Assembly: GCA_019163175.1 (NCBI GenBank)
Contig: JAFLKN010000029.1
Span: forward strand, 1-64,000
Source: Prolixibacteraceae bacterium
GTDB taxonomy: Bacteria; Bacteroidota; Bacteroidia; Bacteroidales; Prolixibacteraceae
Reading direction: 5' to 3'
Length of the DNA stretch: 64,000 nt
Part shown: positions 19,259 to 64,000 of the stretch, one piece after another
Numbering within the stretch: position 1 is the stretch's first letter
How the letters are laid out: each line of letters starts with the position of its first letter
The notes under the pieces: generated by a model
What the model was told of the DNA's origin: nothing
Database searches by the model: none
The model's input: only the letters and a program-made list of their open reading frames with translations
Position numbers and translations under genes: made by a program

Positions 19259-19350
19259 TACCCCAAACCCCTGAAGGGGCTTTTGGTCTGCAAGTATCTG
19301 AAATAATGGTTGATGCAGAAAGTCCCCTTTAGGGGATTTAGGGGTATATT
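19259..19350. repeat. Pair of inverted REP-like palindromes
   Basis: Two copies of one element face each other across about 35 bases. The left copy reads ACCCCAAACCCCTGAAGGGG. The right copy, on the opposite strand, reads ACCCCTAAATCCCCTAAAGG followed by GG. Each copy is a lead ACCCC(T)AAA followed by a CCCCT..AGGGG palindrome. The same design recurs four more times before 26.5 kb. It lies in the 201-base gap between the GH44-like and GH-D genes, where it could form a large cruciform or attenuating hairpin in the mRNA. Confidence 0.8.
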
Positions 19351-22174: not shown

Positions 22175-23983
22175 TTAAAACCTCACATATCCTTTCATGG
22201 TGCCGCATTTTTGGCCTTCACCTGCTCCGTATGGGCGAATGGTGTATGCACCAACCTTCGCCGGAACAATAAACACTTCGGCATAATGCACCACAAATGG
22301 CTCAAAAGCATTGGTCGGACTTTCAACAATCACTTCATCGCCTTCTACCAGACAAATCACATCGACACCTCCATTGGTATGGTGCTCCACTTTTTTGGTG
22401 AACCAATGCCGGCGGGTTTCAATAAACTCTCGTTCGTGCAAACCGGTGCGTTCTTCCACCCAGCCATCGCCTTCGGCCACTTTTTCAATGCAGTTCACCA
22501 GATTTTTGCGTGTCCATTCGGTTGTCCGGTTCCATTGAATATTCTTTTTACCGTGCTCAATATTTATCGGACGCGGTTTGCCATCCATACCCAATCGACC
22601 CCAATCCCATAATTTAAACGTAAAAATATAAGGTGTGGCGCTGATTTCGAGCACCATACTGCTTCTTCCCGAACAGTGAATGGTTCCGGCCGGAATCAAC
22701 ACATGGTCATGCTTTTTCATGGGCCAGGTTTGCACATGCTTTTCGGCTTCAAAAGGCTTGCCTCCGGCCTGTGCTTCTTCCAAATCGGCCAGCATTTCAT
22801 CAGGATTTACCCCTTCTTTTAAACCCAGATACACAATGGCGTCGTCTTCCACATACATCATGTAATAACTCTCGTCCTGGGTGTAATGCAGCCCAAATTT
22901 TTCCTGAATATATTCCGTCAACGGATGAACCTGAAGACTCAAATGGCCGCCTTCCATTGTATCGAGGTAGTCGAACCGAATGGGGAATTCGTCGCCAAAA
23001 CGCCCGTGAACCGGGTCTCCCATCAGTTCGCGCGGATGCCTGAAAACTAAATCGATGGAAGGAATTTCAATTACATCGTCGCCAAACTTCAGCAGCAAGC
23101 TGTTTTCTTCGGGAACTGCGTTGAAACACCATGCATAATTGGGAGCCGATTCATCGAGATTGCAGACCTCTTTCATCCACTGGCCACCCCAGGGTCCGGG
23201 GTCGAAAAACGGCACCACACTAAACGGACGGTTGGTTGCAATTTCAAGACCTTCCAATATGGCTTTGCCTTCAACCAGCTTAGGCTGACCAATTTTGTTG
23301 GTATCGAGCAGGAAATCCCATTTGTCGAACAATGTTTTTTTCAGGCGGTCGCACACACGCCAGTCCACGAAAAATCCCTGTTTGTAAAGCAGCATCCAGT
23401 CGGCTGTATCGCGGTTTTTCACACCCAAATTGTCGACTAAATGTTGGCGCATACGGAGTTGGATTTCCCAACGGGCCATGTCGGCATAAATAAGAAGAGA
23501 ACTCCAAGCCTCCCCTAAATCCCCTCCGAAGGAGGGGCCTTGAGGACACAGCAATGAAGCGCCGTATCCATAAATGATGATAATTCCTTCTTTTGTTTCT
23601 GAAATTTCGTTTTGAATGTTTTTTACTTTTTCTGAATCGAAAAAGGCATCCATAGTCAACCGGGTCATGAAGCCGAAAATACGGTCGTTGGTCACATCCT
23701 GAAACACCAGCTTTTTAATTTCCTCTTCGGGCATCATATAATCTGAAGCTTCGATGAATCGCGTGTACTTCAATCCACTTTTCAGGTTCGAAATCAATTC
23801 TTCATGAATTACTCCCTGATAGGTTTCAATTACCACTAACTTATTATTTCCTGAAAGCGCTGAAATTGAATTATTCAGGCGTTCGCAAATTGCTTCCCAG
23901 CCGTTTTCAACTTTGTACAAATCGTTTTTTACTTCCACTACCGGAAGGTTTGTAAACTTCGATGGTTTGTTTAAATATTTCAT
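22175..23983 (-). CDS. Class I mannose-6-phosphate isomerase-like protein with N-terminal kinase-like domain
   Basis: The C-terminal half (from about residue 250, counting from the ATG at 23983) is a cupin mannose-6-phosphate isomerase domain. It carries zinc-site motifs GGHLSLQVHP (about 345-354), DESYYMMY and LIPAGTIHCSG (about 430-439). The N-terminal 240 residues resemble a nucleotide-kinase-like fold (KLVVIETYQG, YADMARWEIQLR) but I see no intact P-loop. An in-frame ATG 24 bases upstream is less likely. Odd feature: residues about 146-162 (CPQGPSFGGDLGEAWSS) are encoded by a REP-like palindrome and look inserted between GYGASLL and LLIYADMARW. It probably feeds mannose-6-phosphate to fructose-6-phosphate next to the ROK kinase. 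Confidence 0.82.
   Translation of the reverse strand: MKYLNKPSKFTNLPVVEVKNDLYKVENGWEAICERLNNSISALSGNNKLVVIETYQGVIHEELISNLKSGLKYTRFIEASDYMMPEEEIKKLVFQDVTNDRIFGFMTRLTMDAFFDSEKVKNIQNEISETKEGIIIIYGYGASLLCPQGPSFGGDLGEAWSSLLIYADMARWEIQLRMRQHLVDNLGVKNRDTADWMLLYKQGFFVDWRVCDRLKKTLFDKWDFLLDTNKIGQPKLVEGKAILEGLEIATNRPFSVVPFFDPGPWGGQWMKEVCNLDESAPNYAWCFNAVPEENSLLLKFGDDVIEIPSIDLVFRHPRELMGDPVHGRFGDEFPIRFDYLDTMEGGHLSLQVHPLTEYIQEKFGLHYTQDESYYMMYVEDDAIVYLGLKEGVNPDEMLADLEEAQAGGKPFEAEKHVQTWPMKKHDHVLIPAGTIHCSGRSSMVLEISATPYIFTFKLWDWGRLGMDGKPRPINIEHGKKNIQWNRTTEWTRKNLVNCIEKVAEGDGWVEERTGLHEREFIETRRHWFTKKVEHHTNGGVDVICLVEGDEVIVESPTNAFEPFVVHYAEVFIVPAKVGAYTIRPYGAGEGQKCGTMKGYVRF
23506..23542. repeat. REP-like palindrome inside the mannose-6-phosphate isomerase-like gene
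   Basis: Lead AAGCCTCCCCTAAAT followed by the palindrome CCCCTCC-GAA-GGAGGGG (23521-23537). The same element occurs in intergenic positions at 23988 and 26391 and inside the next gene at 24970. Here it is translated on the minus strand and keeps the frame open, contributing residues around PSFGGDLGEA. Confidence 0.8.
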
Positions 23984-23987
23984 TATA

Positions 23988-24016
23988 AGCCCCTCCAACC
24001 TCCCCAAAGGGGAGGC
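23988..24016. repeat. REP-like palindrome, intergenic copy
   Basis: AAGCCCCTCCAACC lead followed by CCTCCCC-AAA-GGGGAGG (23999-24015). It fills most of the 46-base gap between the ROK kinase stop and the start of the mannose-6-phosphate isomerase-like gene, so the transcript should carry a strong hairpin just ahead of that start codon. Confidence 0.8.
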
Positions 24017-24029
24017 TATTTTTCATTGT

Positions 24030-25031
24030 TTATTTTAATAAAGATTTTCTCACCAGATAGTCAGCGCCAACTAAGGCTGCGGAGTCTGGAAACTTTGCTT
24101 CTACCAGTTTTACTTTTCCCCAGGGAGTCCAGGCCAGTTGGTTCACTTTTTCCTGAAGCGCGGGCAGAATAACCGCAGAACTCTTCATGATTCCGCCACT
24201 CAGAATAATCATTTCCGGGTCAAAGGCATGAATCATGGTAATGATTCCGGCAGCCCAGGCAGAAAGGCAATGCTCCAGCACTTCTTTGGCGACTTTATCA
24301 TTATTTCCGGCATGATGGAAAAGTGCCCTAAAATCAAGAACATCTTCACCTTTAATGGCACTTTCAGTAAATTCAGGATGCTCTTTCAGTAGCGATGGCA
24401 AACGCCAGGTTGAGGCTTCGGCTTCCACACAGCCCACATTTCCGCAGGTACAATCTGTCCCTTTGTGGTTCACTACGAAGTGTCCGCCAAGATTTCCGGC
24501 CTGAAAATGTTTTCCAATCAGTAACTCGCCTCCAATCAAAACGGCAGAACCAATTCCGGTACCCAAAGTAACGGCAACCAGTTCCGTACAACCCTGCCCT
24601 GCCCCGTGTTGCCACTCGCCCAGCAAAGCCATCCGCGCATCGTTCATGGCGTACAAAGGCCAGTTCCACTTTTCACGTGCCCAGCCAACCAAATCGGTGT
24701 CGGGACCGTCGTCGTACTTTTGGTTGGTCGATAAAATGCGGTTGACAGCCGAGTCAACCAGTCCGGCAAACGAAAAACCGATGCCAAGCACAGCTTCGTT
24801 TTCAACCTGATTGGCCAGCATAAATAAGTCTATTTCTGATTCAAGTGCTGGCAATTGAGCTTTTAGCCCCGAAGCCGATTGAGCCGGAATTTCTTTCCGG
24901 TCAATGAGTTCACCATTTTGGAGCAAGCCAATTTTGATAAAGGTTCCGCCTAGGTCGATGGCAACAGAAAAGCCTCCCCCGACCCCTCCAAACGGAGGGG
25001 AGAAAGTACCGGTATGCTTTGTTTTTCTCAT
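24030..25031 (-). CDS. ROK-family sugar kinase (glucokinase/mannokinase-like) with repeat-derived N-terminus
   Basis: ATP-dependent hexose kinase. Phosphate-binding strand VAIDLGGTFIKIGLL, LGTGIGSAVLIGGEL, GNLGGHFVVNHKG and the ROK zinc motif CTCGNVGCVEAEAS are all present; the catalytic Asp is in YAMNDARMALLGEW. The normal ROK protein starts within a few residues of the VAIDLGGT strand. Here it is preceded by about 20 residues (MRKTKHTGTFSPPFGGVGGG) encoded by a REP-like palindrome. I see no alternative ATG, GTG or TTG between the palindrome and VAIDLGG, so the repeat is translated. It lies between the MFS porter (23 bases) and the isomerase-like gene, fitting uptake followed by phosphorylation. 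Confidence 0.9.
   Translation of the reverse strand: MRKTKHTGTFSPPFGGVGGGFSVAIDLGGTFIKIGLLQNGELIDRKEIPAQSASGLKAQLPALESEIDLFMLANQVENEAVLGIGFSFAGLVDSAVNRILSTNQKYDDGPDTDLVGWAREKWNWPLYAMNDARMALLGEWQHGAGQGCTELVAVTLGTGIGSAVLIGGELLIGKHFQAGNLGGHFVVNHKGTDCTCGNVGCVEAEASTWRLPSLLKEHPEFTESAIKGEDVLDFRALFHHAGNNDKVAKEVLEHCLSAWAAGIITMIHAFDPEMIILSGGIMKSSAVILPALQEKVNQLAWTPWGKVKLVEAKFPDSAALVGADYLVRKSLLK
24970..25006. repeat. REP-like palindrome inside the 5' end of the ROK kinase gene
   Basis: AAGCCTCCCCCGA lead followed by CCCCTCC-AAAC-GGAGGGG (24983-25000). On the coding strand it specifies the proline/glycine run PPFGGVGGG just before the first beta-strand of the kinase. Same family as the copies at 19259, 23506, 23988 and 26391. 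Confidence 0.8.
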
Positions 25032-25054: not shown

Positions 25055-26377
25055 CTATTTTGCAAACTCTTTTTCCAGTTCCTCCAGGGTTTTCCCCTTA
25101 GTTTCAGGAACATAATTCAGTACATAAACCAAATTGGCCAGGCAAATCAGTGCGAAAATCAGGAACGTAATTCCACCGCTTAATTTTTCGAGCATAACCG
25201 GAAAAGCTATGCTTACAACGGTGCAGGCAATCCAAAGTGACACAATGGCAATCGACATTCCTTTGCTGCGCAAGCGGTTGGGGAATAATTCGGTGGCCAC
25301 AACCCAAAGAGCCGGGCCCAGTGAGGCGGCAAAAAAGGCAATGTAACCGAGAATAAATACCAGCACTAAAACTCCTGAAGTTTGATTGGTAAAATACAAA
25401 GCCGACAATCCGGCAAGCATCAACGTCATACCGGTTGAACCGATTACAATTAGTAATTTACGTCCAAAACGGTCGATTAAAACCATTGCCACCAAGGTAA
25501 AAACCAGGTTTGTGCCGCCAATTAAAATGGTTTGCAACAAGGCCGAGTCGTTGCTCTGACCCACATTGGCAAAAATTTTCGGCGCGTAATACATGATGGT
25601 GTTGATTCCGGTAATTTGCTGAAAAACGGACAATATAATCCCGATAAACAACAGTGGTTTTATTTTGGGCGCCAGCAAATCACTGAAAGTTGATTCCTCC
25701 TGATTTTTCAGGGTTTCTTCAATTTCTTTCAATTCAGAAGCTGCAAATTCTTTTCCCGAAGTTTTTACCAACACATTGAATGCATCGTTGTTTCGGCCAC
25801 GGGCAACCAGCCAACGCGGACTTTCCGGAACCAAAAACAGGCTGAAAAACAGCAAAACAGCAGGAGCTGCCATCACCAGCAGCATCCAGCGCCAGTTGTT
25901 TTCGCCTGTGTCAACCAGCAAATAATTGCTAAAAAAAGCCACTAAAATACCGATGACAATGGCCAGTTGGTTAAGTGAAACCAATGTTCCGCGATATTTG
26001 GCCGGTGCAAGTTCGGCAATGTACATGGGAGAAAGAATGGATGCTACACCAACAGCAATGCCTCCCAAAACACGTGCGGAAATAAAGAAAACCAGCGAAT
26101 GAGCAGATGCGCTTCCCACAGCCGAAATAAAAAACAGCAGCGCTGCCGCCATCAGTACTTTTTTACGGCCGTAATGGTCGCCAGCCTTTCCGGCCAGAAA
26201 TACTCCCGCGATGCACCCAAACAGCAAACTGCTGACTGTCCAGCCCAAACCTGCCTCTGACAGGCCGAAATATGGCTGAATAAAATTGATGGTTCCGGAG
26301 ATCACCGCAGTGTCGAAACCGAACAAAAGCCCGCCTAAAGCGGCAACTACTGAAATTAAAACGACGTATCCTTTCAT
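25055..26377 (-). CDS. MFS sugar porter (proton-coupled hexose/pentose transporter)
   Basis: Inner-membrane major-facilitator protein of the sugar porter family with 12 predicted membrane segments. Signatures: LGGLLFGFDTAVISGTI at helix 1, DHYGRKKVLM in loop 2-3, VPESPRWLVARGR after helix 6, GINTIMYYAPKIF at helix 7, DRFGRKLL in loop 8-9 and PETKGKTLEELE at the C-terminus. It is closest in pattern to XylE/GLUT-type proton symporters. At 440 residues it is complete. Together with the ROK kinase and the isomerase genes it forms a cytoplasmic uptake module for monosaccharides released by the exported hydrolases. Confidence 0.95.
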   Translation of the reverse strand: MKGYVVLISVVAALGGLLFGFDTAVISGTINFIQPYFGLSEAGLGWTVSSLLFGCIAGVFLAGKAGDHYGRKKVLMAAALLFFISAVGSASAHSLVFFISARVLGGIAVGVASILSPMYIAELAPAKYRGTLVSLNQLAIVIGILVAFFSNYLLVDTGENNWRWMLLVMAAPAVLLFFSLFLVPESPRWLVARGRNNDAFNVLVKTSGKEFAASELKEIEETLKNQEESTFSDLLAPKIKPLLFIGIILSVFQQITGINTIMYYAPKIFANVGQSNDSALLQTILIGGTNLVFTLVAMVLIDRFGRKLLIVIGSTGMTLMLAGLSALYFTNQTSGVLVLVFILGYIAFFAASLGPALWVVATELFPNRLRSKGMSIAIVSLWIACTVVSIAFPVMLEKLSGGITFLIFALICLANLVYVLNYVPETKGKTLEELEKEFAK

Positions 26378-26390
26378 TGTTTATAATTTT

Positions 26391-26428
26391 AAACCCCCTC
26401 CAAACCTCCCCCGAAAGAGGAGGCTTAA
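26391..26428. repeat. REP-like palindrome, intergenic copy
   Basis: AAACCCCCTCCAAACC lead followed by an imperfect CCTCCCCCGAAAGAGGAGG palindrome and a short AAGG tail. It lies in the 105-base gap between PGI copy 2 and the MFS gene. Orientation matches the copies at 23506, 23988 and 24970. Confidence 0.75.
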
Positions 26429-28457: not shown

Positions 28458-28469
28458 AATTCTTAAAAG

Positions 28470-28865
28470 TGGAGCTGGCGGGAGTCGAACCCGCGTCCAA
28501 ACGAGGAAGCAATATGCTTTCTACATGTTTATCCCCAGACTTAATTTTCGAATAAAAGCTGGATCAGGGCCACCGACTTTTACCTTATCTTCTGAATTTT
28601 GCGAAAGTTCCGAAGCATCACTTCCGCTATCCCCGATTTATTTGCACCGCCTGATCGGGCCGCTTCAGGGAAGTAGCACCCGGGCGATGTCTCGTTCCAG
28701 TATCTAATACCGGAATAAAGTGTAATCTACTTGAAGTGGATTACGCAGCAAGAGCGTAGTTATTTTCGCCAATTGAATTGTGAACGCCGAGTTTAACGGG
28801 CTGTGCGATCAAGGCCCTACATGCTTACATACCTCTTCTACCCGCTGTCAAAACCAGTCAGCCCC
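28470..28865 (-). ncRNA. ssrA: Transfer-messenger RNA (tmRNA)
   Basis: Rescues stalled ribosomes and tags the unfinished protein for proteolysis. On the minus strand the 5' end GGGGCTGACTGGTTTTGACA and the 3' end GGGTTCGACTCCCGCCAGCT followed by CCA form the tRNA-like acceptor and T-arm. The T-loop GTTCGACTC and an acceptor pairing GGGGCTG with CAGCTCC are clear. CCA beyond the discriminator is not encoded. The internal reading frame gives GENNYALAA and a TAA stop. About 396 bases, a one-piece bacterial tmRNA; the tag is of the Bacteroidales type. Confidence 0.95.
28741..28770 (-). other. tmRNA tag-peptide frame
   Basis: GGC GAA AAT AAC TAC GCT CTT GCT GCG TAA on the minus strand encodes GENNYALAA-stop. 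The C-terminal ALAA is the ClpXP-type degradation signal. Confidence 0.9.
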
Positions 28866-58853: not shown

Positions 58854-58926
58854 GCCTCTTTAGCTCAGTTGGTAGAGCAGCTCATTCGTAATGAGCAGGT
58901 CGGCGGTTCGAGTCCGCCAAAAGGCT
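58854..58926 (+). tRNA. tRNA-Thr (anticodon CGT)
   Basis: 73 bases fold as a cloverleaf: acceptor GCCTCTT with AAAAGGC (one C-A mismatch), D-arm GCTCAGTTGGTAGAGC, anticodon stem GCTCA/TGAGC with loop TTCGTAA giving anticodon CGT (Thr, ACG codon), and T-arm GGCGG-TTCGAGT-CCGCC. CCA is not encoded. Confidence 0.93.
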
Positions 58927-62800: not shown

Positions 62801-64000
62801 ACTTCAGCAAACACATGCCACCGCCTTAGTAAATGCCACTGCTTTGGTAAATGCTTCAGCTTTAGTGAACGAACTGGGCCAGCCATTGCTTGATGCAACG
62901 GCCCTGGTAAATAAGAGCTTCATGATTAGTGAAGCCACAGCCCTGGTAAATGCTCTGGCATTAGTAAATGGAACACTTATCGATCCTAAAGCATTGCTAG
63001 ACGCCACTGCTTTGGTAAATGCCACTGCCCTGGTAAATGGAACAGTTCTGGTGAATGGAACAGCGTTGGTGAATGGAACAGCGCTTGTAAATACATATGA
63101 CGCTTCAGGCAATCTTGTTAATTCGACTGCTCTGGTTAATTCAACCGCCTTGGTTAACTCGACTGCTTTGGTTAATTCCGGAACCATCAATTCAAACAGC
63201 AACAGTGAAGCCATTTTAATACTTGGGAAGGATGATATTTCTATCCTTGATGGTACCATTCCGGGAAATATTATATTGCGATCGGTAAATTTGGTGACCG
63301 GAAAAACAGTAGGCCAGCATCTGATAATTCCAGGAACACTTCTTTCCAATAATTTCAAGATAAGCTATGGCCTAGGTAAACTGACGGTAACACCTGCAAT
63401 GGCAGAAGTTACATTTATTCAGGAAGACTTGAATAAAAACTACAGTGGAATTGCAGTAAAACCTAACGTAATAACAAATCCGGAAGGTTTGCTGATTGGG
63501 TTAACATTTAATGGCACCCCTGCAACTCCTGTTAATGTAGGAACTTATCAAGCAATTGCCACTGTAAAAGATCCAAACTATATTGGAAGCAGTACTGCAA
63601 CTTTCAACATTAAGGCTGCAACAGCAAAAGTTACAGCAGATGATAAGGTGATAAATGCATGTAGTTCTCTCCCACCTCTTGCTGCAACTTTTAGTGGCTT
63701 TGTTAACGGAGAAACCCAACAGGTGGTTACTTCCCTTACGTTTAACCTGAATCCGTTATATGCCGGGAAGGCTGGTGTTTATCAGATTACTCCTCTTGCA
63801 AGTGCCGCAAATTATTTATTCACACCGGTTCAAGGAACTCTTTATGTGAATCCATTCGGATCTTCGGCCAAAAATATTAAAACAAGTCTGGTATGTGTGC
63901 AGCCAATTACACAAGATCCCAACGGATATACTTACATCGCAAATTTCAAATATGAGAATCCAAATTCCACACCTGTATATGTTGCCATCGGTCCTGAGAA
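59805..64000 (+). CDS. Very large secreted S8/S53-like serine protease with MBG domains and hexapeptide array (3' end outside window)
   Basis: Starts at the ATG at 59805, runs 1398 codons without a stop, and leaves the window. Signal peptide about 1-32 (LFVFFSISTAKAQ). The protease domain (about 320-740) has GVKVGVISDSFN with Asp332, TDEGRAMLQIIHDIAP with Glu377 where subtilisin has His, TYFSAAGNYGN (oxyanion Asn) and FFGTSAAAPHAAAVAALLSE with Ser677: the sedolisin-like Glu-Asp-Ser pattern. An IPT-like beta domain follows, then MBG-type modules (IDDKSKKFGEVIPEFTATYT; VRPKDKVITYGQEI; NKNYSGIAVKPNVI; VTADDKVINACSS). A TALVNx array lies at about residues 1004-1125. A T9SS sorting domain is expected at the unseen C-terminus. 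Confidence 0.85.
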   Translation, partial: MKKGNFYHKFYNLLIASCISLFVFFSISTAKAQNNCEISKSHGKGYTTSIKSVTSIGNNRYTIVLNVKHNGCEDEDDKSMSRYSVEALPGTYSNVIVNVISGNLNYKNIELGPTLAGDSFTGFRITGTAGFGNEKPGEFNISYTLSGGLQNQRTQVKVGNYFLKVYFKIADFQNVLNCQTPTSIFPYYTPPVGGKLVSIIGPELTSLYNYYAAGGTYQTNDIFQIFGSDVLIEIKVLDGMYASLLSLLTTTYGLYDVVPDANGIIITGKIPILKLLSLNTLTTYIKFVRPVYPAIPTSGIVTSLGDIAMHSDFARNGFNLQGEGVKVGVISDSFNTLSGNPAQDDVSKGDLPGAGNPVNPNPVDVVLEYPFGTRTDEGRAMLQIIHDIAPKAKLAFRTGFINAPDFAKGINDLKEAGCDIIVDDITYITQPFLTDGIIAQAVNKVKTQGVTYFSAAGNYGNKSYQNTFNAGTTPAGIPGVAHNFAGSTGNDIYQSVSLAEGNYTIVLQWNDGSGSEQTNTDLDIYLTNNNGTTLFGFNRGNIGTQPIEVLPFTVASGGAQTNIMITKPTGGNNVYFKYVVFRGNLTFDEYGQGSSTLVGQSNSEGAIAVGAVLYSNTPAFGVNPPTIASFSSIGGTPVNGVVRNKPEISAPNGGNTTVNLGGTNIDGDQFPNFFGTSAAAPHAAAVAALLSEARSKFYNSDISPDEVKGLLQNTAIDMNTPGFDLVSGSGLIQADAALLTLANPLPHVNTLTYDTTLTPGLVPIDVTLSGNYLTGQSLIYFNGSPLNTKTTLVGDTILKATIPQFTDLFPVIQAYNPPLPQTNGSDGGLSNPMYFSTKKKILIQIDDKSKKFGEVIPEFTATYTLESIDGSVPLVSAGLTEAELGRIKNIAFETAANALSNVGLWKIDPSSSDPLNPFSGVTATDLLDLSLLNRFDFVFKSGFLTIEKMALLVRPKDKVITYGQEIAGIEFDYIFNDGSLNPENLVTISPEDNTAILAQLQQTHATALVNATALVNASALVNELGQPLLDATALVNKSFMISEATALVNALALVNGTLIDPKALLDATALVNATALVNGTVLVNGTALVNGTALVNTYDASGNLVNSTALVNSTALVNSTALVNSGTINSNSNSEAILILGKDDISILDGTIPGNIILRSVNLVTGKTVGQHLIIPGTLLSNNFKISYGLGKLTVTPAMAEVTFIQEDLNKNYSGIAVKPNVITNPEGLLIGLTFNGTPATPVNVGTYQAIATVKDPNYIGSSTATFNIKAATAKVTADDKVINACSSLPPLAATFSGFVNGETQQVVTSLTFNLNPLYAGKAGVYQITPLASAANYLFTPVQGTLYVNPFGSSAKNIKTSLVCVQPITQDPNGYTYIANFKYENPNSTPVYVAIGPE
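62815..63180 (+). repeat. Tandem 18-base repeat encoding hexapeptides (TALVNx)
   Basis: About 13 clear copies and several degenerate ones of a unit like GCCACTGCTTTGGTAAAT code for [AGS]TALVN. Runs of two or three copies alternate with short spacers (ELGQPLLD, KSFMISE, TYDASGNLVN). The last three units (STALVN) and the GTALVN run are nearly identical at the DNA level, indicating recent slippage or unequal exchange. The pattern suggests a short beta-solenoid or a variable-length stalk. Confidence 0.85.

Follow-up and report, generated by a model that had tools for sequence, protein, structure and literature searches.

Homing endonuclease genes reside in the introns and inteins of conserved host genes. 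Protein-coding palindromes, such as the Rickettsia palindromic elements (RPEs), raise the question of how they move and why they lie in frame. As described in the accessible part of PMC10969869, RPEs are palindromes of ~150 bp that are found in frame in unrelated genes and add a short peptide to their products. The GTAG/CGTC REPs covered in the accessible part of PMC3733652 are 20-40 bp palindromes located inside ORFs of several species, including those for tRNA synthetases; in recB, two species have an intragenic REP at roughly the same position. For Flavobacterium, the RepRanger paper lists genomes in which REP calls run into the thousands (accessible part of PMC12306157).

Here we analyze a stretch of 64,000 nucleotides from a Prolixibacteraceae bacterium (the window; assembly GCA_019163175.1, contig JAFLKN010000029.1, positions 1 to 64,000), which contains a palindromic element in the frame of a mannose-6-phosphate-isomerase-like gene, and compare this element with its copies in the genome and the genus and with the ends of units that encode a DUF559 domain.

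The element and its host gene

The host gene (22175-23983, minus strand) encodes a protein of 602 aa, counted from the ATG, which matches PDB entry 1qwr over residues 250-475 (phmmer, E 2.5e-8). The same structure is the top Foldseek match, and no Pfam match is found for this protein at E 0.001. A repeat within the open frame of this gene had been noticed in a sequence-only reading of the window and is confirmed here as an in-frame palindromic element of 34 nt at 23506-23539 on the minus strand (49.5 bits, with an E-value that is biased because this copy was used in building the model). The element consists of the hairpin CCCCTCC-TTC-GGAGGGG, followed by the spacer ATTTA and by GGGGAGGCTT, a G-rich half arm ending in GGCTT. 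Within the window, its core GGGGATTTAGGGG is confined to this position and to the inverted pair at 19260-19345 that is discussed below. The earlier reading took 17 residues to be inserted, namely residues 146-162 (CPQGPSFGGDLGEAWSS; 23498-23548, minus strand). The repeat-encoded stretch is indeed in open frame, but in the alignment C146-P147 and the next residue are assigned to the host, so that the net gain amounts to 12 residues here; it is 8-12 residues in the remaining carriers, with 15 in L009. The AlphaFold model has a mean pLDDT of 90, with residues 150-154 below 50, and the insert is predicted to be a low-confidence loop between the helix 142-145 and the strand 161-168.

Copies of the repeat had also been placed between genes nearby. 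This holds for two weaker relatives with permuted arms, both on the minus strand, one separating the isomerase-like host gene from the ROK kinase gene (23987-24017, 17.3 bits) and one upstream of a sugar-transporter-like gene at 25055-26377 (26391-26424, 19.9 bits), but not for the second copy of the element proper (24970-25002, minus strand; found by pattern and model), which lies within the ROK kinase gene (24030-25031), in frame with its N-terminal coding part. There it encodes SPPFGGVGGGF ahead of SVAIDLGG, and the ROK domain starts at residue 23 (Pfam). Elsewhere in the window, we observe a tmRNA gene (28467-28865, minus strand; Rfam RF00023), a tRNA gene (58854-58926) and an array of diverged 18-bp units (GCCACTGCTTTGGTAAAT-like; 62817-63193) that possibly encodes a repeat protein.

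Presence of the insert among homologues and its history

The search for isomerase homologues covered 140 genomes of the family, from which the 30 best-matching homologues with loci, each of full length, were aligned. The insert is present in 12 of these, with an open reading frame in each, whereas the other 18 are colinear and lack it, the nearest being L013 with 88% identity. A second set, mostly from Bacteroidota and made up of the 80 top-ranking stretches out of 592 or more, includes 10 homologues with the insert, of which 9 apparently repeat genomes of the first set and one (L122) is new, and 70 without it. Colinear homologues without the additional residues, which the sequence-only reading proposed to look for, thus exist; the pattern that it named as contrary, the same residues in distant genera without the palindrome, is not found among the best 80 of the at least 592 stretches. 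Judged from these alignments, an in-frame insertion into the isomerase-like gene is well supported. No DUF559 domain is found at the isomerase site in the aligned homologues of either set (30 and 80).

The element of L018 is diverged, including the stem, and the element of L009 contains an additional short palindrome. A further short palindrome in some element copies (L009 and L240, with the peptides ELVPNNRE and ESLSRNFGRV) represents a nested insertion.

A gene tree built without the insert columns requires 4 changes of insert state, at least 3 of them by starred branches. The 9 carriers from the genus form one clade (98/97), and the position of L008 is unresolved in the tree. In the two outlying carriers, L015 and L018, ~60-90 bp of the upstream flank are closer to the carriers than to their sisters, and L018 shows a sharp switch near -90 when compared with its sister L024. 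The permutation p values range from 0.0004 to 0.06 across six sister choices, with top segments that are often far longer than the 60-90 bp flank. Because of the carrier-like flank, local recombination is preferred over an independent insertion of the element at one codon in these two genomes; re-insertion at the same codon as an explanation of their patchy placement is disfavored by the flank and by the sharp switch. From sequence, then, it looks as if the insert reached L015 and L018 by homologous recombination of the neighboring DNA. The element probably entered the isomerase gene in an ancestor of most of the sampled carriers.

Copies of the element in the genome and the genus

In the 5.92-Mb assembly (74 contigs), 9 sites match the split pattern CCTCCCC..CCCCTCC..GGAGGGG exactly, compared to none for the reversed-pattern control. 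In the count inside and outside genes that the sequence-only reading suggested, all 9 strict copies fall within open frames, whose lengths range from 139 to 927 codons, although two of them (L033 and L037) are probably leaders. With up to 2 mismatches, CCCCTCCNNNGGAGGGG is found at 14 sites of the genome compared to 3 in the control. A looser test restricted to the window is weak (3 matches vs a mean of 0.68 in shuffles, with as many in 6 shuffles). A covariance model detects at least 16 copies in this genome at E 0.001 and, at the same threshold, copies in 22 of the 23 genomes of the genus, with 0 to 79 per genome; these counts are lower bounds, as scoring covered 150 of the 301-787 candidates in each genome. 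Elements are more numerous in genomes that carry the isomerase insert than in the remaining genomes of the genus (p 0.001).

When the 17 copies that this genome has at E up to 0.004 are read by hand, 3 fall inside coding regions and 2 in N-terminal coding parts, 4 change C-termini, and leaders and intergenic regions hold 4 each. The internal copies are in genes that we take to encode the isomerase, ValS and a DNA methylase, and the N-terminal ones in genes for what we recognize as an alkyltransferase-like protein and for the ROK kinase. The altered C-termini presumably belong to TrpG, a radical-SAM protein, a sugar-phosphate isomerase and an efflux pump; most of these names reflect our own recognition, with the identities of ROK and ValS resting on Pfam or PDB matches. 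In G019, 30 of the 57 copies were looked at. The element in AlaS of this genome apparently takes the place of a native loop of about equal length, with a net difference of ~2 residues from the cytoplasmic AlaRS 4xem, and was therefore not taken as a clear insertion.

DUF559 cassettes in tRNA synthetase genes and elsewhere

The DUF559 family (PF04480), which we take to be a Vsr-like nuclease domain of the PD-(D/E)XK type, is represented in 14 of the 23 genomes of the genus by 28 matches, all above the Pfam cut-off and 2 of them in this genome; membership in this family concerns the cassettes described below and not the insert in the window. In 8 related genomes the match is located within ValS, one of these genes (G005) being interrupted near an ambiguous stretch. 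For example, in ValS of G019 (L311) the DUF559 domain spans 234-340 and is nested inside tRNA-synt_1 (Pfam). DUF559 is similarly nested in IleS of G016 and G002 (Pfam), and a third IleS case (L287 in G017) is at a contig end.

The ValS site is empty in L314, L321 and L258, contains a solo element in L319 and L320, and contains an element-DUF559-element composite in L311-L313 and L315-L318; in the genome under study, ValS contains two element stretches. All inserts at this site are multiples of three in length, and the frame is kept in the 7 composites that were read. Given that the frame runs through the DUF559 insert, the host protein should keep it as a translated domain. The L313 genome is a single contig, 99% complete, in which further ValS matches, besides its own two gene pieces, have at most 48% identity; with no closer second ValS, the working ValS of this genome presumably contains the cassette. 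For five ValS cassettes, dN (0.08-0.13) is far below dS (0.75-2.6), which indicates that the DUF559 domain is kept as a protein under purifying selection. In different genomes, two cassettes sharing 53-63% identity are present at one and the same ValS site. In the tree, the cassettes of ValS and IleS group together (99/98), as do, in a separate clade, the units at permease gene ends (100/99). Self-splicing carriers of DUF559 were considered and rejected, with no intein-type Pfam domain in the 4 DUF559-bearing hosts scanned and no Rfam intron at the gathering threshold in 8 sources.

Several other arrangements are observed around these genes. The valS 3' end is copied again ~1.5-3 kb downstream in 5/5 genomes examined (L311, L312, L313, L314 and L320), and the gene sets between the two 3' ends, which presumably include an AAA ATPase with a small protein, sce7726-like genes and others, differ from genome to genome. 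This pattern suggests that the end of valS is a hot spot at which small islands, perhaps related to defense, integrate. Standalone DUF559 units (L283, L296, L299 and L301; the protein of L283 has 142 aa) directly follow the stop codon of MacB-like permease genes; beyond the unit there is a second permease 3' end, which by eye differs little from the first in L283 and L299 and has diverged in L296 and L301. Finally, a DUF559 domain is contained in the type ISP restriction enzyme genes L328 (Pfam) and L329, the latter having, by eye, at least 5 repeat-derived stretches in one frame.

Palindromic ends of DUF559 units and candidate movers

The R1 model of the element was built from no DUF559-flanking copy. 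With L308, L309 and L310 left out of the flank counts and the tree, the 28 DUF559 matches correspond to 25 loci. By a hand count, half arms point outward on both sides of DUF559 in 12 of these, and one rightly oriented side is present in 4 more loci, among them L290, in which both matches are on one strand and one is wrongly oriented. The stronger matches face inward in L304 and L305, and L289 and L307 have one wrongly oriented match each. Where both sides match, there are 12 outward pairs vs 3 loci arranged otherwise. Irrespective of family, GC-rich hairpins are present in 38/50 DUF559 flanks compared to 9/193 windows further out, 1/16 flanks of Y1 transposase genes and 4/399 window tiles, and on both sides in 14/25 DUF559 loci; these values are from a relaxed hairpin rule, adopted after a stricter one had given 27/50 DUF559 flanks vs 8/193. 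Both DUF559 genes of this genome are flanked by palindromes, L283 by ends of the style described here and L284 by a different long palindrome. The palindrome family around DUF559 in L284, L297, L302 and L306 is, by eye, a different one, of the style GACTCACCCC...GGGGTGAGTC.

The inverted pair of ends in the window (19260-19345, no strand assigned; identified with the model and by comparison with L283) consists of ends only, 36 bp apart. They are identical to the ends of the L283 DUF559 unit at 23/23 bases on the left and 26/27 on the right, and the pair reads as a putative internally deleted derivative of a DUF559 unit.

These observations bear on the question of which enzyme, if any, moves the element. 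That it is a REP moved by a RAYT-type (Y1) transposase, a mover suggested for REPs in other settings, with the DUF559 cassettes as unrelated passengers, would fit a small palindrome in multiple copies, some of which form inverted pairs like REP doublets, in a genome with 8 Y1_Tnp matches, and CGTC-type REPs have been reported in Bacteroidetes (accessible part of PMC3733652). We nevertheless consider this mover improbable, given that the consensus carries neither a GTAG nor a CGTC tag, that the scarcity of GC-rich hairpins next to Y1 genes is opposite to their abundance next to DUF559, and that no convincing element is detected in the flanks, searched to at most 1.5 kb, of the 8 Y1_Tnp genes in this genome (best match 10.9 bits, E 0.16).

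A less distant rival holds that the element is a selfish palindrome of the RPE kind which moves by other means, the DUF559 cassettes merely tending to land in palindromes or tolerated loops. The 12 vs 3 predominance of outward pairs and the near-identity of the 19260-19345 pair with the ends of a DUF559 unit speak against it; in its favor, intragenic REPs and RPEs are documented, in tRNA synthetases as well (accessible part of PMC3733652), orientation at DUF559 is not uniform (12 outward pairs in 25 loci and 3 loci matched otherwise on both sides), and element-bearing genomes without a DUF559 match exist, namely G006 with 39 elements, G018 with 45, G022 with 51 (76% complete) and G011 with 16. 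On balance we regard this rival as unlikely, albeit deserving of attention. Across genomes, the number of elements is weakly correlated with the number of DUF559 matches (rank correlation 0.39, p 0.07).

Conservation of the element sequence

In 10 carriers of the isomerase insert, there are 0 synonymous differences at the 6 evaluable insert codons, compared to a mean of 0.41 at 492 other codons of the same genes, and no six-codon window is equally low (0/486); this count omits L009, with its extra residues, and L018, with its degraded element. The amino-acid changes in the insert fall mostly within the loop and spacer. The right-hand element of ValS is identical across 30 bases (10 codons) in 6 genomes in which the host codons differ at 0.38, and DUF559 codons, compared in 5 genomes (4 of them common to the set for this element), differ at 0.38 as well. 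The ValS set consists of the 6 genes with the exact peptide, so that amino-acid identity is there by selection of the set; it omits genes with the other cassette and L313, in which by eye the changes are in the loop and spacer only.

Frozen synonymous sites combined with amino-acid changes in the loop and spacer suggest that constraint or homogenization acts on the DNA or RNA of the element rather than on the peptide, with counts that cover few codons. A host function of the insert, for instance as a new loop of the protein or as a translation-pausing hairpin in the mRNA, would account for the preserved frame in all 12 isomerase carriers, and the freeze could in principle reflect selection at the RNA level. 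We find such a function very improbable: the changes in the counted insert codons are amino-acid ones and none is synonymous, unlike the outcome of selection on a protein, the same repeats occur in unrelated proteins, and the insert is predicted to be poorly ordered.

Proposed explanation

In the account that we propose, the 34-nt repeat is mobile and forms a hairpin; it inserted in frame into the isomerase gene and may persist by adding a short Gly/Pro/Ser/Glu-rich stretch to a loop, both loop and disorder being predicted. Elements of this type make up the ends of the cassettes that lie in frame in ValS and IleS of related species and code for a DUF559 nuclease-like domain. The nuclease might cut at or near such ends, or at empty sites, and repair would copy the unit, in a homing-like process without splicing. 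Solo copies could be relatives that lack autonomy and depend on this machinery for their movement, or remnants after loss of the nuclease.

This account as a whole, a mobile in-frame element with DUF559-linked mobilization, appears moderately probable to us; mobilization by DUF559 is the part that we infer. Its more specific form, in which non-splicing in-frame units with DUF559 and inverted palindromic ends home into ValS and IleS and are translated there, with solo palindromes as their non-autonomous ends, is tentative, with chances somewhat short of even. The four element-bearing genomes without DUF559, three of which are element-rich, count against DUF559 as the mover. The link to DUF559 is likewise weakened by the non-uniform orientation, the other palindrome family at 4 loci and the lack of DUF559 at the isomerase site in the aligned homologues. 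Also to be counted against the account are the few codons over which the freeze extends, the diverged element of L018, the interrupted ValS of G005 and the apparent recombination into L015 and L018.

Comparison with known systems

The likeness to the Rickettsia palindromic elements that the sequence-only reading suggested applies to the way of working but not to membership. Both are palindromes inserted in frame in unrelated genes and coding for a short added peptide, and for the isomerase element the in-frame insertion is evident from colinear insert-free homologues. The differences are in length and taxon, ~150 bp in Rickettsia (accessible part of PMC10969869) and 34 nt in Bacteroidota. Furthermore, the accounts of RPEs, in the accessible parts of PMC10969869 and PMC3733652, make no mention of a nuclease cassette, in contrast to the DUF559 cassettes described here.

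The 20-40 bp range of REPs does fit the 34-nt element, with at least 16 copies in this genome and lower bounds of 0-79 per genome in the genus. The element differs from REPs in its consensus, which ends in GGCTT and carries no GTAG/CGTC tag, and in its surroundings, as none of the 8 Y1_Tnp loci of this genome has an element below E 0.16 and the pairs bracket DUF559 instead. MITEs and REP doublets resemble it in that short, ends-only inverted pairs are related to a longer coding unit, but the parent unit here would encode a DUF559 nuclease and not a DDE or Y1 transposase. With homing genes, the cassettes share the location of a putative nuclease gene in a conserved host gene and the presence of empty and occupied alleles at one ValS site; they differ in that no intein domain or Rfam intron was found and the frame runs through the insert. 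No report of a bracketed in-frame DUF559 cassette was found in the literature searched, most subscription journals being outside its scope.

In annotation, it should be kept in mind that a short stretch rich in Pro and Gly in a Bacteroidota protein may stem from repeat DNA that is translated, and that a nuclease domain can be nested in a tRNA synthetase. A single site in an essential gene at which the element is absent, solo or paired around a nuclease in several species of one genus makes mobility and target choice directly testable. Since in-frame palindromes are known as RPEs and intragenic REPs, the insert in the window is a variant of a known phenomenon, to which non-splicing DUF559 units, if the proposed account is true, would add a candidate mover of in-gene palindromes.
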